This document shows, in pieces, positions 2,422 through 9,069 of a stretch of 21,914 bases of DNA (positions within the stretch are counted from its first letter, which is position 1; each line of letters opens with the position of its first letter). The notes below the pieces were generated by a model that had not been told where the DNA came from, ran no database searches, and was given only the letters and a program-made list of their open reading frames with translations. This DNA comes from a virus: positions 1-21,914 of IMG/VR virus record IMGVR_UViG_3300025117_001647. One strand, given 5' to 3'. The position numbers and the translations under genes were made by a program.

Positions 2422-2673
2422 TCAGCCGCGCCAGCGGCCGTCCTGCAGCGTCACCAGGGTCCGCTTGCCGTTCGGATAGGTGACGATATGGCTGTGGGTC
2501 CAGCTGGACAGGCCCCGGTTATAGCCCTGGTCGAACAGGCCCGAGAGCCCGGCCGTATAGACCCCGTCCAGGATGCTGGCGCTGTGGTCGTGCCCGCGGT
2601 TGATCTTGACCGCCGTCTTGATCAGCCCCGCCGCGCTGCCCCGCGCGCCGTTGATGCCCAGGTGCCCGTGCAT
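2422..2673 (-). other. C-terminal open segment of the split metallophosphoesterase
   Basis: This 83-codon segment holds the last catalytic blocks: HGHLGINGARGS at its start, GHDHSASILDGVYTAG (residues 27-30 are GHDH) and THSHIVTYPNGKRTLVTL near the end. The ATG at 2673 is internal to the intact family, and the conserved reading extends upstream of it (AAGGIECGM), so this is a fragment and not an independent gene. It ends 29 bases before the endolysin start. Confidence 0.6.
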
Positions 2674-3743
2674 GCCGCACTCGATCCCGCCCGCGGCCTG
2701 GCGATCATGAACGACTGATCGTCGTCGACGAAGTCGATCCCCTCCAGGCCCCGCCCGTCGATCTGGCCCAGGATCCAGCGGAAGACGTTGAACCCCGCAT
2801 CCGCCCGCGCGATCGCCTCATAGACCGCCGTCTGGCACCGCAGGAAGAAGGGCGCATTGACCGCGTCCTCCCGATAGTCGGCCGTCTTCAGCCATTTCAG
2901 CAGGGCGTCGTCGTGATTGGAGTAGCAGACCACCGACCGGCACCAGTCGCGCTCCGTCTCCCTCAGGAACCGCGCCACCGCCACCACCGCATCCTCGACC
3001 CGGTCCGTCCCGCGACAGACCATGGCGAACCGGTGATGCTGATCCTTGATCCGGTGATGGTTGCGGGTGTCGAAGTCCAGAATGTCGTGGAAGAACTGAT
3101 AGCGGGGCTTCAGGGCGTCCAGCAGGGTGTCGGCGCTGACCGTGCGGTCACAGTCGACGTCCAGGCCCCAGCTGGCCAGGGCCACCACCGGATCCAGCTT
3201 CTCCCGATGAATGTCGCCCCAGGTGACGGCCTCGACCCTCTGGCCCGTCGTGACCTTCCCGTCCCGCACCACCGTGTCCAGATCCTGAAACGCCCCGTCG
3301 CTGGTGGCGTTGATCTGCCGGCAGAACAGGCGACCGGCCGCGTCGATCTCGACCACCGTCGCCCCGATCACATGGTGGAACCGCGCCTTCAGCCCCGCCT
3401 TGCGTTCGACGTAGTTGTCGACGGTGCAGGCGCCCGTGGTCATGATCATCTTCACCGGCCCGCCGATCGTCGTCGGCACGCTGACCAGCTGCACCTTGGC
3501 GTGCGGGAAGACGCCCCACTTCTGGGCGGTATAGCTCTCCAGCCCCGCCAGCGGCCGCACCGCCGTGGGCAGGGTGTTCATCTCGGCGCAGAAGACCACC
3601 GGCCCCAGGTCGACCGCCTCGTGCCGCATGAAGGGCCGCACCTCTTCGGCGAACACGGCGGATCGTGACGCGTGATCCTCGAACAGCCCCTTCTGATAGG
3701 TGAAGCCCCCCCACCATAACCTCCGCGCCCCGATGCCGCGCAT
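2622..3743 (-). other. Central open segment of the split metallophosphoesterase
   Basis: This is the longest uninterrupted piece (373 codons from an ATG that is probably not a natural start). Its first dozen residues are out-of-frame readthrough before the G run. From GGFTYQKGLFEDH onward it reads as conserved protein: a beta-rich domain with PHAKVQLVSVP and FHHVIGATVVE, then metal motifs GDIHREKLDP (176-179), HDILDFDTRNHH (219-225) and SNHDDALLKWL (275-278). After residues DDDQSFMIA it turns into nonsense (PRAGSSAACTGTW), marking the second shift. Without the C-terminal GHxH motif it cannot complete a two-metal site. Confidence 0.6.
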
Positions 3744-4167
3744 AGGCCGTCAGATTGCGCCAGAACGGCCCGTGGACGGCCGTATCGTCCTGGGCGGCCG
3801 TCAGCAGCCACACACGGCCCTCAGACGCCCTGCAACCCCTTCCCACGGCCTTGGCGGTCACCGGCCCCACGATGCGCCAGGCGGTCCAGTCGGGGCAGTC
3901 GTTCGGCTGGCCCTGGCCCTTCAGGATCTGCTGCTTCCGCACCCAGTTGGACAGGGTGGCGTTCGACATCTTCAGCCGCTTCGACGCCTCCTGAACCGCC
4001 GATCCCCGGCCGCCCGTCACGCCATAGGGCGCATAGCCGTCCCTCAGACAGTCCTCGATGGCCGCGCGGCGCTGGGCGGCGACCGCGGGGGCGACGGCAG
4101 GCGTGGGCATGGGCGGGCTCCGGTGCGGATGGCCGGCCGTTCGTGCTCAGCGATGTGGGGCAAGACA

Positions 4168-4191
4168 CCTGCGACAGGTCAGGGTCGCAGG
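4168..4191. promoter_or_regulatory. 24-bp perfect inverted repeat upstream of the HTH-phosphoesterase gene
   Basis: CCTGCGAC (4168-4175), an 8-base spacer AGGTCAGG, and GTCGCAGG (4184-4191) form a perfect palindromic pair. A smaller palindrome ACCTG-CGA-CAGGT (4167-4179) overlaps its left arm. It lies about 60 bases upstream of the start at 4110, in the only sizeable gap of the minus-strand operon, where an operator or attenuator is plausible. No clear -35/-10 pair is visible. It could equally be an RNA hairpin without a regulatory role. Confidence 0.35.
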
Positions 4192-4217
4192 CGCTGACAG
4201 AGGGCGGGCGGCCTCAA

Positions 4218-4240
4218 ATGAGGAGCGCGGCTCCCCTCAT
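4218..4240 (-). terminator. Candidate weak terminator after the acyltransferase gene
   Basis: On the minus strand GGAGC pairs with GCTCC around a CGC loop, and the stem extends through a 2-base bulge to ATGA/TCAT. It starts about 20 bases beyond the acyltransferase stop and is followed by TTTGAGG, only a short T run. It may partly terminate transcription between the acyltransferase and the HTH-phosphoesterase gene. The 150-base gap 4111-4260 otherwise holds only the palindrome at 4168-4191. Confidence 0.4.
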
Positions 4241-4260
4241 GTGATGAAGGGGCGTGGAGG

Positions 4261-5364
4261 TTAAGCGACCCCAGCTACGGCGGTGACAACCCGTCTGTTT
4301 GATCGCTTCAATAGCTTGGATCGAAGGAACGCCAGCAAGGGCTTCTCCACGGCCAGGTGAGCAACGACCGAGATACAGATCGCGACCAGCACCATGAGGA
4401 CAAACTGACCCTCGTACGACAGGAAGCGGAAAACGTCCGCCTGAAACACTCTGATCAGCACAGAGCCCACTGCGGTGTGAACGAGGTAGAGCGCGTATGA
4501 GGCGCCGCCCAGCACCTTCAGCAGGGAGCCGAAGGGCAGAGCCCTGACCTTCTCCATTTGGGTGACCCCGAAGATAATCAACGCAGAACACGACAGGTAA
4601 ATAATAGGGCTCACTCGCTCGCCGAGAGGTCGTCCCGGAACAGGGACGTATCGACCGATCTTCCACTCGATAACCATGGCCGCGATGAATAACGTAAGCC
4701 CCGCGAGAGCGATCAGTCCTGGACGTCGAGGCTGCCACCTGAAGGAGGCCCAGGCGGCGAAGATGCCCATCCCGAACCCGATATTGTGCAGGTAGAGGAA
4801 GGGCTTCACGGCCCCCGCCACGTCGGACGGATAAAGAAGTCCGAAGACAAGCGATCCCAGCTGCCAGGCGACCAACGCGGCGACGCCCGCCCTGGCGTTC
4901 AGTATGGCTATCGAGAAGATCGCATAGAAGACGACCTCGTGGCGCAGCGACCACGACTGGGCCAGGACTTCCGACCCGTTCATCGGCAGCAACAGAGCGT
5001 CCAACACAAGGGAGCCGGGGCTAAGGTCGCGATCTCCGCCTAAAGAGGGGATCAGCGCAAAGGCGGCGAGCAACGCTGCGAAGACCGCGAGATACATCGG
5101 GTACAGGCGAATAGCCCGCTTGACCGCGAAGTCGCGCAGCTTCGCCCTTACCCCGAGATCGCTTCGATGGATGTAATAGATGATGAAGCCGCTGAGGACG
5201 AAGAAGTATTCCACCCCTGCATGGCCGGCCCGGAACGCCATGTCGAAAACATAGACCTCGTGGAAATCCACAAACATGATCGAGAAATGAAAACAGGCGA
5301 CGAGCAGGGCCGCAGCGAAACGGCCGGCTTCCAAACCTAAAAGGCGGCCGCTTCCCGACATCAT
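4261..5364 (-). CDS. Acyltransferase 3 family membrane protein (surface polysaccharide O-acyltransferase), 367 aa
   Basis: This is a multi-pass inner-membrane enzyme of the acyltransferase-3 (OafA/NodX-like) family, which transfers acyl groups, usually acetyl, to surface glycans. Visible hallmarks (from residue 1 at 5364) are the catalytic-region FHFS with His26, VEYFFVLSGF (51-60), the basic KRAIRLYP (82-89) and WSLRHEVVFY (from 138), followed by many hydrophobic helices and a basic C-terminus. The start at 5364 has GGAG 9 bases upstream; an ATG at 5379 is in frame but has no ribosome binding site. It follows the tailspike gene by about 20 bases and is clearly less GC-rich than the tail genes. 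The likely role is host surface modification (lysogenic conversion or exclusion of related phages); the acceptor glycan is unknown. It may be a cargo gene. Confidence 0.85.
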   Translation of the reverse strand: MMSGSGRLLGLEAGRFAAALLVACFHFSIMFVDFHEVYVFDMAFRAGHAGVEYFFVLSGFIIYYIHRSDLGVRAKLRDFAVKRAIRLYPMYLAVFAALLAAFALIPSLGGDRDLSPGSLVLDALLLPMNGSEVLAQSWSLRHEVVFYAIFSIAILNARAGVAALVAWQLGSLVFGLLYPSDVAGAVKPFLYLHNIGFGMGIFAAWASFRWQPRRPGLIALAGLTLFIAAMVIEWKIGRYVPVPGRPLGERVSPIIYLSCSALIIFGVTQMEKVRALPFGSLLKVLGGASYALYLVHTAVGSVLIRVFQADVFRFLSYEGQFVLMVLVAICISVVAHLAVEKPLLAFLRSKLLKRSNRRVVTAVAGVA

Positions 5365-5387
5365 GGCGTCCCGCTCCATTTTGTGGG

Positions 5388-7670
5388 TCAGGTGAGGGCA
5401 TCAAGCGCGTTCGGACGCTTGACCAGAGCATGAACGCCGTCCCCTCTCGCGTCAAGCAGCGGGATCGCTGTTCCGCGAGTTCCAACCTGCACGAACTCGC
5501 CGGACACCGGGATGGTGACGTTCGTGTTGCTCTCAATACGGATGAAGGAGGTCGGGTTGGCCGAACCGCCATCCGAGAAGGGACGAACGCGCACATTGCT
5601 GACATTGGACCGCGCGGTCACGACCGTGTTACGGAAAACGAAGCAGTCGCCGCCGAGGCCGTCGGTGAAGTCGAGATCGACGTCGTCGATCTGCACCGCC
5701 CCCATGGTGCTGAAATCAAAGTGGCGATTGTTGCACCTTTCCGACACAATCCCCTTGACCGTCAGGTTCGCGCCCGACGAGGAGCCGCTGAAGAACCGCT
5801 GTAGGTAAGGCGAGTTTGAGGCGCTGCCGTCACCCCGACCCCTGCATCGCTCAAGCCGCAAGGTCTGATTGTAGCGCGTAGCGCCTAGCGCGCTGGCCTG
5901 GGCTTGCGCGAACGCTGCATATTGGTAGTCGATGATATCGACGTTTCTCACCACGACATCCGCCTTGTAGTTCAGCGGCAGGGCTTGCGCGAGATCCATG
6001 AACCCGACGACGGGGCGGCGAACGCGACCGTTGCTATAGAGAGTGCCAAAACCGCGATTGACGATGCCAAACGGGCTAGTGATCTCGCGAAGGGTCGAGA
6101 CGTTGGGGCCGACGTCGAACCCATCAAACCACATGAACCGCGACCCATAGTGTTGATCGACGGCCTGGCCGTAACAGGCGGTTGCGATGACCTTGACCTT
6201 GGCGTACTGCGCGCACCCGCGCCGCCACTGCTCCGTCCCGGAGTATGCCGAATGATAGGCCGGGTTGGTCGTCACAGCATGGCGCACCCACGATGCGTTG
6301 ATCTTGCCGCCCCCGCCGTAACAGGCGCCGAAGAACTCGACCACATAACCATAGCCGCCCTCCGGCGTCTCGCCCTCCCTGGCGTCGTTGGCGAGATTGG
6401 TGGCCGTCACGTCGAATTCTGGAACGTAGCAGGAGGACAACCGGATCGCAGTCTGCCAGCCGCCGTTAATCTTCGTGTTGATCTTCGGGCGATACACGCC
6501 CCGGAGATCAATGGCGATCTGGCGGTTGTCCTTCCCGATGGTCGCGTTGATGTCGCCGAGCGCTTCGATCTTCGGGCCGTCCCATTCGAAGACAGAGTCC
6601 GTGTCCAGCCGTTGCAGGATGACCGAAGTCGAATAGGTATCGTACAGCTGATCCGCGATCAGCACGACAGGCGCGGCCGATACGGTCGTCGCGCCCGCCG
6701 AGCCGTTGATCGTCAGGCTTTCGCCGGATTGGAACTGGCCGCTGATCGAGTTGAAGATCAGATAGTTGGCCCCGCTCCGCTCAGCCACCGAAGCGACCTC
6801 GGCGGTCGCGCCGGAGATTTGCCCGACGACGACCTGACCCTTTGCCGCCGAACCCACAGACCCCACCTGCAGGCCGATGCCGGCGATGTGCACGTATTCG
6901 GCCTGATAGATGCGCTTGGTTCCGTCGCCAATATCCAGCGCTGCCGCAGCAGAGGACCAGGGATAGGCGTCTCGACTGGATAGCAGGTAGACTTGGCCGG
7001 TCTCGATCCCCACCGTAGGCGCGGTCAGGGCCCATAGGGTCGCGAGCCTGTCGTTGAATAGGTTGGGGTTGGCCGGGTCCGCCATTGCCCCCAGCGTGAT
7101 TTTGGCAACCGCGCTGACCGGAATGGACGGAGGCGTCGGACGTTCGACGATGCAGATGGAACTGTCGGGTCCGGATTCTTGCAGGACGGTTCCCGGGCCG
7201 TGCACGCGGACTTTGGACGGATCGTATTCACGGATCTTCACGCCGCGCAGGCGCAGGCCCTCGTTGACGTAGACGGCGACGCCCAGCGTCTTGGCTAGAG
7301 CCAAGGCGGTCTGGAACTTGGCGTTGTCGTCCGTCACCCCGTCACCGACGCATCCGTGGAGCGCCAAGTCGATGTGCGGAATTTCGAGCGCGCGCTGGAC
7401 CTCGCCCCTCTCCTCGGCCGTCGAACCCAGAAGGACTGCCTTGAGCGATCCGATCGAAAGCGAGGTGAAGCCCGCCAGGGTGTCGGCCAACTTCTCGAGC
7501 GTGTTTGCGTCTTCTGGCGCAGCGCCGACGATGCTGAAAACGGCATCGTCGATCGCTTCATTCACAGGTCCATCGATCCCGGCAAGCGATTGATCGACAA
7601 AGTCGACGAGATCGTTGATCTTGGCGCGAGACTGGCTCCAGGTTTCGCGGATCGCGATTTGCTCAACCAT
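5388..7670 (-). CDS. Tailspike/tail fibre with pectate-lyase-like beta-helix (760 aa)
   Basis: This is a receptor-binding spike, probably trimeric and possibly a glycan depolymerase. Residues 1-95 form a helical, virion-attachment-like N-terminus. The GCVGDGVTDDNAKFQTAL block (about 107-122) is the classic opening of phage pectate-lyase-superfamily beta-helices. A long beta-rich, Gly/Asn/Thr-rich region with repeated short strands follows to about residue 700, then a small C-terminal domain ending in VKRPNALDALT. A segment near 277-335 (GQISGATAEVASVAERSGAN onward) looks like an inserted beta domain. Catalytic acids cannot be identified by eye. The ATG lies inside the end of the tail-tube-like gene (8-base overlap) with GAGG 10 bases upstream. 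G+C is visibly lower than in the structural tail genes, consistent with module exchange. The acyltransferase follows directly. Confidence 0.85.
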   Translation of the reverse strand: MVEQIAIRETWSQSRAKINDLVDFVDQSLAGIDGPVNEAIDDAVFSIVGAAPEDANTLEKLADTLAGFTSLSIGSLKAVLLGSTAEERGEVQRALEIPHIDLALHGCVGDGVTDDNAKFQTALALAKTLGVAVYVNEGLRLRGVKIREYDPSKVRVHGPGTVLQESGPDSSICIVERPTPPSIPVSAVAKITLGAMADPANPNLFNDRLATLWALTAPTVGIETGQVYLLSSRDAYPWSSAAAALDIGDGTKRIYQAEYVHIAGIGLQVGSVGSAAKGQVVVGQISGATAEVASVAERSGANYLIFNSISGQFQSGESLTINGSAGATTVSAAPVVLIADQLYDTYSTSVILQRLDTDSVFEWDGPKIEALGDINATIGKDNRQIAIDLRGVYRPKINTKINGGWQTAIRLSSCYVPEFDVTATNLANDAREGETPEGGYGYVVEFFGACYGGGGKINASWVRHAVTTNPAYHSAYSGTEQWRRGCAQYAKVKVIATACYGQAVDQHYGSRFMWFDGFDVGPNVSTLREITSPFGIVNRGFGTLYSNGRVRRPVVGFMDLAQALPLNYKADVVVRNVDIIDYQYAAFAQAQASALGATRYNQTLRLERCRGRGDGSASNSPYLQRFFSGSSSGANLTVKGIVSERCNNRHFDFSTMGAVQIDDVDLDFTDGLGGDCFVFRNTVVTARSNVSNVRVRPFSDGGSANPTSFIRIESNTNVTIPVSGEFVQVGTRGTAIPLLDARGDGVHALVKRPNALDALT

Positions 7671-8688
7671 TGTCGATCATCCTCAGATTGTCATACATGA
7701 TGCGGTTTTCAGCCATCACCGTGTCCGCGAAGACGGTGTCGAAGGCGGTGATATTGCTCAGGGCGCTGATCGTCAGCGCGGGCGATCCGGTGGACTGATA
7801 GGCCATCAGCGGCACGTCCACCTCGACCCCGTCGGGGCCGTCGGCGCCGATCGGCGTCTCGTCCAGCAGGGCCTGACCGCAAGCCAGTCTCAGCCCGCGA
7901 TCGGTCTCCCGAAACAGCTCCAGCGCCATCGCCCGTTCGGTCCGCGACCAAGCGTCGGCGATGATGGTCTGATCGGCGTAGCGCAGGCGGACAGACCCTG
8001 TCAGGCTGGACTTGCCGTTGTATTCGATCCGGTTGGGCTTGCCGGTCCCGTCGGCGGCGCGGATACGCTTCAGATTGCGCTTGAAGGTCAGTTCCCCGCC
8101 GATGATCTGGCCGCCGGCGATCCCATTCCAGATCACCCTGGCCAACGCCTCGGCCGGGCGGTCCAGATCGGGCGGAGCGCCCACCTCTTCGCTGTCCTCG
8201 GCCGTTTCGACATCCCGCGCCTCGTCCAGGCCGACAAAGGTCAGGCTGGCCCGGGCGAAGCCGTCGGCCTCGGGGTTCAGGGCGATCTTCAGCTCCTCGC
8301 CGACCAAGCCGACGTGACGGCGATAATCCCCGCTCTGCAGCCTGTGCTGAAGACTGACGTATTGCAGTTCCAGTCCGCTCCTGAACTCATGCTCCAGGTC
8401 CGGCTCATCGCCCGTCGTCGTCGGCTCGCCAAAGAAGGCCATCATCCAATAGGGCAGCTGGGCGATGCACAGCGGAACCTCCACCGTCAGCCTGTGGTCG
8501 GGCAGGCCCGGCCCCGGCTCGGTCGGATCGGTCAGGTTCTCGAAACCGCCGTGCAGGAGAGGATCCTCAGGCCGACTGCGGGTCTGACCCCCGGTGATCT
8601 TGTAGACGTTCAGAGCCTGCCTAGCCGTCGCAAAGCCGAAGGGGCTGGTTTGCAGGCCCAGTTCGACCTGGCTCTCTAGTCCAAGCAT
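7663..8688 (-). CDS. Tail tube protein-like (Phage_tube_2 family), 341 aa
   Basis: This is a beta-rich structural protein resembling the Phage_tube_2 (PF18906) tail tube family. The opening LGLESQVELGLQTSPFGFAT is typical, followed by EVPLCIAQLPYWMMAFFGEP (the hydrophobic strand before the tube fold), EHEFRSGLELQYVSLQHRL, YRRHVGLVGEELKIALN and ARASLTFVG. The C-terminal half repeats similar beta features (VRLRYADQTI, ALDE-like elements), suggesting a two-domain protein. The GGAG motif lies about 7 bases upstream of the ATG at 8688. Its position is odd: tube genes normally precede the tape measure, but this one sits after the tip protein and holin candidates and overlaps the spike gene by 8 bases. 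It could instead be a tube-fold adaptor linking the spike to the virion. The fold call is moderately sure; the role is inference. Confidence 0.65.
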   Translation of the reverse strand: MLGLESQVELGLQTSPFGFATARQALNVYKITGGQTRSRPEDPLLHGGFENLTDPTEPGPGLPDHRLTVEVPLCIAQLPYWMMAFFGEPTTTGDEPDLEHEFRSGLELQYVSLQHRLQSGDYRRHVGLVGEELKIALNPEADGFARASLTFVGLDEARDVETAEDSEEVGAPPDLDRPAEALARVIWNGIAGGQIIGGELTFKRNLKRIRAADGTGKPNRIEYNGKSSLTGSVRLRYADQTIIADAWSRTERAMALELFRETDRGLRLACGQALLDETPIGADGPDGVEVDVPLMAYQSTGSPALTISALSNITAFDTVFADTVMAENRIMYDNLRMIDNG

Positions 8689-8724
8689 GGCGCGCTCCGT
8701 CGTCGCCGCGGCGACGTCCAGGGG

Positions 8725-9069
8725 TCAATGATGCAGGGTGTCGCCGGCTGGCGCCTGGCGTCGGATCCGATGGCCGATCCGGCCGTCGACCGTCCCGTCC
8801 AGACCGTCGATCCGTCGCCGCCAACCATGGCCGTAAAGGGCTGTAAGATGTATCGACAGCCCGCACAGAAAAATCAAGTCGCCCAGGCCGGGCGGATAGC
8901 CCAGGAACCGGCTCGGACCGGCCCAGACCAGGCCTGCGCCCATGGCGCACAGGCCGATCCGCCGCCACCGGCCGGCGTCGCCGCCCCATCCCATGACGGC
9001 GGTCAGAACCACCATGCCCGCCACAGCCGCGCCGGCGATCAGGGTCAGACTCTGCAGGACCGCGTTCAT
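8725..9069 (-). CDS. Small three-helix membrane protein, possible holin/antiholin partner (114 aa)
   Basis: This is a 114-aa integral membrane protein with three hydrophobic segments (about residues 5-27, 36-52 and 61-80) and a strongly basic, soluble C-terminus (HGWRRRIDG onward). I do not recognise a family. It starts at 9069 in an ATGA overlap with the upstream 132-aa membrane protein, so the two are translationally coupled, as holin/antiholin or two-component holin pairs often are. A longer open frame to 9282 is an Arg/Gly-rich shadow of the upstream gene. The role is inferred from size, topology and neighbour only. Confidence 0.7.
   Translation of the reverse strand: MNAVLQSLTLIAGAAVAGMVVLTAVMGWGGDAGRWRRIGLCAMGAGLVWAGPSRFLGYPPGLGDLIFLCGLSIHLTALYGHGWRRRIDGLDGTVDGRIGHRIRRQAPAGDTLHH

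Follow-up and report, generated by a model that had tools for sequence, protein, structure and literature searches.

A T5 A1-type gene split over three reading frames in a single phage contig

The locus and its reading frames

The window, by which we mean the whole 21,914-nucleotide stretch of viral DNA analysed here, carries on its minus strand, a detail absent from an earlier note on this DNA, a gene of the T5 A1 family, with an ATG at 4110 and a stop codon at 2422-2424. Between these points the gene leaves its initial frame (frame A), runs on in a second one (frame B) and then returns to the first. The features of the locus are as follows.

2422-4110, minus strand: whole gene, T5 A1-like (PHROG 1745, "DNA transfer protein"), with two frameshifts; PHROG matches in three pieces, DNA 91% identical to that of an intact gene in the closest relative
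3713-4110, minus strand: about 132 codons of frame A that encode the N-terminal piece; PHROG 1745 positions 80-118; GC3 of 0.86-0.92
3706-3712, minus strand: site 1, a coding-strand run of seven G, with one base more than the relative has in the alignment
2622-3743, minus strand: middle open frame B, 373 codons, homologous part about 3705-2703; motifs GDIH, LDFD and SNHD; PHROG 1745
2702-2703, minus strand: site 2, where the alignment shows one base fewer than in the relative; no homopolymer
2422-2700, minus strand: C-terminal piece in frame A with HGH and GHDH; PHROG 1745; 97.6% amino acid identity to the relative

The frames were followed with a GC3 plot, which records third-position G+C content in each frame and is independent of homology. 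GC3 in the correct frame was 0.86-0.92 from the ATG to about 3740 (frame A), 0.86-0.98 from about 3735 to 2690 (frame B) and 0.92-0.98 from 2685, where frame A resumes; the switches near 3700 and near 2700 are thus visible from GC3 periodicity alone. The PHROG 1745 profile matches the translated pieces consecutively over positions 80-541 of its 542, with positions 80-118 in the N-terminal piece (E=2e-7), 122-453 in the middle piece (E=1.5e-113) and 459-541 in the C-terminal piece (E=1.8e-36). The ordered profile matches and the GC3 switches together indicate one gene split over three frames, in agreement with the earlier note, which had described a gene broken by two indels with segments in frames 1-2-1.

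Alignment to the closest relative, IMGVR_UViG_2734482272_000001, located both changes. One base is in excess in the run of seven G at 3706-3712 (seven C on the plus strand) and one is missing at 2702/2703, within the 2680-2710 interval where the earlier note had expected it. The net length change is zero, and the relative's intact protein has the 562 amino acids predicted for the joined product. A third gap pair, at 3905/3914, cancels inside nine bases. The description of the two indels as compensating holds for length and fails for function: translation from the ATG gives 320 amino acids and then a stop, because the stretch of about 1 kb between the indels is out of frame from the ATG and holds stops at 3150 and 2820. 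As the frames run A-B-A while the relatives examined have a single frame, the gene is a broken copy of the T5 A1 / PHROG 1745 family in this contig, and as written it is not a working member.

Family, motifs and neighbouring genes

All five metal-ligand motifs are present in the broken gene, namely GDIH, HD..DF (HDILDF), SNHD, HG(H) and GHDH. GDIH, LDFD and SNHD are encoded in the middle frame and HGH and GHDH in the last, intact as the earlier note had reported. The corresponding residues D299/H301, D342/D345, N398/H399, H481 and H507/H509 (numbering of the closest relative) are invariant among nine relatives. The series DxH, D, NH[D/N], H and GHxH is one that we take to be the metal ligands of calcineurin-like metallophosphoesterases. 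Searches with the protein gave no Pfam match to its core and no hit among PDB sequences; the N-terminal piece bears a weak helix-turn-helix resemblance (HTH_Tnp_1, E=0.004, below Pfam's cut-off). An AlphaFold2 model of the intact relative was of moderate quality (pLDDT 68), and its best PDB fold matches, Vps29 and purple acid phosphatases, were weak (E >= 2.5e-3, low TM-scores), too weak for us to lean on. The name metallophosphoesterase given to the gene earlier is a reasonable one that stops short of the precise family, which, judged from the profile, is T5 A1 / PHROG 1745. Homology to T5 A1 suggests a role for the intact protein in host DNA degradation, DNA transfer or both, for which it would use a predicted calcineurin-like two-metal site.

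The closest relative is a 57 kb, syntenic, temperate phage with an integrase and a repressor-like gene, and the phage of the window is probably a temperate siphophage as well. Because of these two genes in the relative, we regard the locus as a case of an A1-type gene among the late genes of a siphophage that is probably temperate. The best matches include phages of Caulobacter, Brevundimonas and other alphaproteobacteria, and these relatives, the only guide to the host, suggest Caulobacterales-type bacteria.

Several features of the surrounding region deserve mention in their own right. The holin-side genes and the A1-like gene are separated by about 4.7 kb (4112-8780), compared with 180 bases in the syntenic relative. 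This interval contains a tailspike-like gene (5388-7670) and, adjoining it, an Acyltransferase-3 / O-acetyltransferase gene (4261-5379), whose product possibly modifies a host surface sugar in lysogenic conversion. It also contains a tail-tube homolog (7663-8688) with 70% amino acid identity to the relative's tube, which is encoded upstream of the tape measure gene. This is an unusual place for a tail tube gene and may reflect a chimeric assembly; a scan for relatives of the tube returned weak matches only. On the other side, two adjacent, related DUF6527 genes (1258-1883) lie between the endolysin and spanin genes, and a CHAP-like endolysin-type gene (1880-2392) scores below Pfam's cut-off. 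The relative has a different, peptidase-looking gene in the latter's place, an apparent swap in the lysis region.

Selection, relatives and the origin of the two indels

Against the closest relative, dN/dS was 0.05 for the middle piece and 0.04 for the C-terminal piece. The N-terminal piece was looser (0.16), in a part of the protein that is poorly conserved family-wide. The protein changes that could be polarised with outgroups divide into 10 on the window's lineage and 9 on that of the relative, and therefore give no sign of relaxed selection in the former. The low dN/dS led us to reject a long-standing pseudogene. Five nonsynonymous core changes fall on the window's side, a count with P about 0.03 had the gene accumulated 0.012 substitutions per site unselected; this is a rough Poisson estimate under a neutral model that ignores background changes. 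More than about 0.012 unselected substitutions per site are thus disfavoured, compared with a branch length of about 0.13 at synonymous sites. In the gene we saw no additional in-frame stop, larger deletion or surplus of missense changes, and in the approximately 20 kb of other coding sequence in the window no further frameshift. The gaps that blastn reported in other genes lie nearly all in short neighbouring groups, and protein comparison shows those genes to be open. Since the limit on unselected divergence is small relative to the branch length and other decay was not seen, the breakage is either very recent or not real.

The gene was compared in relatives, as the earlier note had proposed. 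In the closest one it is a single frame of 562 amino acids, and the 13 loci found with an A1-like gene, among them two in bacterial genomes, are all open in a single frame as far as they cover it. From the bacterial class of one of these two, 385 genomes were drawn; of the copies that matched, the four spanning the core are free of stops, and a fifth match, weak and N-terminal, has one. Among 60 phage records sampled across the match ranking, a single one, that of Salmonella phage GSW6, is split in two pieces. Sites 1 and 2 are unbroken in every relative whose frames we examined, where the gene passes through both in one frame. Intact motifs, the low core dN/dS, no excess of changes and unbroken relatives all support the recent mutation or read errors that the earlier note had offered as explanations. 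Pattern scans of IMG/VR around each site did not recover the same phage, a scan with the N-terminal piece matched only the known relative, and phage and plasmid collections yielded no near nucleotide match; as records almost identical to the window may be missing from these scans, failure to meet the same phage in them is not evidence.

The earlier note had also proposed that the G run acts as an on/off switch, through phase variation or transcriptional slippage. The run does coincide exactly with the frame switch. However, none of the relatives read has seven G there (the nearest has GGGAGG, read as GTG GGA GGC), seven G is short for such a tract, and the window's second run of seven G, inside the spanin gene at 1205-1211, is nothing more than GGG GGG in frame, encoding two glycines. 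A change in run length joins at best the first two pieces of the gene. Because of the second indel, at 2702/2703, no run length restores the frame of the C-terminal HGH and GHDH, whereas in a phase-variable gene tract length alone should restore the full frame. These comparisons do not support the claim, and we regard such a switch as very improbable.

Programmed recoding, in which ribosomes would shift +1 at the G run and then -1 near 2702, would account for frames that occur in the right order and a profile that continues without a gap. Against it, site 1 has no stop in its vicinity, no slippery heptamer was found near site 2 (2660-2790), and the RNA folds downstream of both sites do not improve on those of shuffled sequences (z 0.07 and 0.10). 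The relatives examined are also single-frame, except for one T5-like record broken elsewhere in the gene. The slippery site, stimulatory structure and conservation in relatives that identify a programmed frameshift were accordingly not found here, and we give recoding almost no credence. A combined version, in which the G run is a real slippage site that tunes A1 and a second recoding event adds the C-terminal ligands, is scarcely more credible; if true, a temperate phage would tune production of a host-DNA-degrading A1 protein via slippage at a G run.

We infer instead that the two indels are, with moderate probability, sequencing or assembly errors in the contig. The phage would then carry an otherwise normal, recently functional T5 A1-type metallophosphoesterase gene, its frame broken in the contig only. 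The breaks would be independent of each other, each a length change of one base, the first in a G homopolymer and the second in ordinary sequence, and would stem from sequencing or assembly and not from the phage. In favour of such errors, the breakage is known from a single virus contig, one indel lies in a homopolymer, the usual site of sequencing errors (PMC12007338), and other decay is absent. Two indels in 21.9 kb amount to about 9 per 100 kb; reported values are 5 to 187 per 100 kb in long-read drafts and 0.13 to 1.7 in hybrid or modern assemblies (PMC12007338). The density would suit a long-read draft better. Against errors, the approximately 20 kb of other coding sequence showed no frameshift, two random indels would share any one gene with a probability of 0.11 and both fall in the A1-like gene specifically with a probability of 0.006, and site 2, having no homopolymer, is an untypical error site.

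The same clustering is what would be expected if the indels were real and A1 alone were free to decay, with the other genes intact. The gene would then have been inactivated very recently in the phage or prophage, as an early-stage pseudogene, and A1 would be dispensable for a temperate phage or lost after prophage fixation. The temperate nature of the nearest relative (integrase, repressor-like gene) accords with this, as does the G run, a natural site of replication slippage. However, other decay, in the form of in-frame stops, larger deletions or too many missense changes, is missing from the gene, and a pair of indels is a lot for a period that was so brief and saw so few substitutions. 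Nor is there decay at either site in the relatives examined, or any stop in the four genomic copies that cover the core. We therefore hold a real inactivation to be possible but the less probable of the two origins, the weights given to them being a matter of judgement.

The split gene is thus ordinary and no switch; mistakes in sequencing or assembly, or else mutations of very recent date, are the most likely source of its indels. What removes the switch is the combination of the frame plot, the unbroken relatives and an indel, the second, that lies outside any homopolymer. As a mechanism the locus carries little weight; it illustrates clearly why a gene found broken in one phage contig should not be taken as regulation. 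If the indels are real, a T5 A1-type gene is being lost in a temperate phage.

Comparison with known systems

The T5 A1 family (PHROG 1745) has more than 1,100 matching phage records, many of them annotated as A1 or DNA transfer protein. In T5 itself, A1 is reported to be essential for host DNA degradation and, jointly with A2, for the second step of DNA transfer (PMC13250531). A query with the intact relative gave about 38% identity to T5-like phages. Two differences separate the window from T5 and its family: A1 of T5 lies in the pre-early terminal-repeat region, whereas here the gene is in the late region, adjoining lysis and tail genes, and in this contig its frame has two breaks. Phages of Caulobacter and Brevundimonas (phiCbK, CcrSC, Kikimora) have A1 homologs with 43-48% amino acid identity across the core; those phages are large (200-350 kb), whereas the window is a siphophage contig with a relative of about 57 kb. 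A parallel to the breakage itself is Salmonella phage GSW6 (NC_111398.1, 1216-2882), whose A1 annotation consists of two overlapping CDSs, an indication of one frameshift or a sequencing error in that record. Unlike the gene in the window, it has a single break, at a different place and without a G run.
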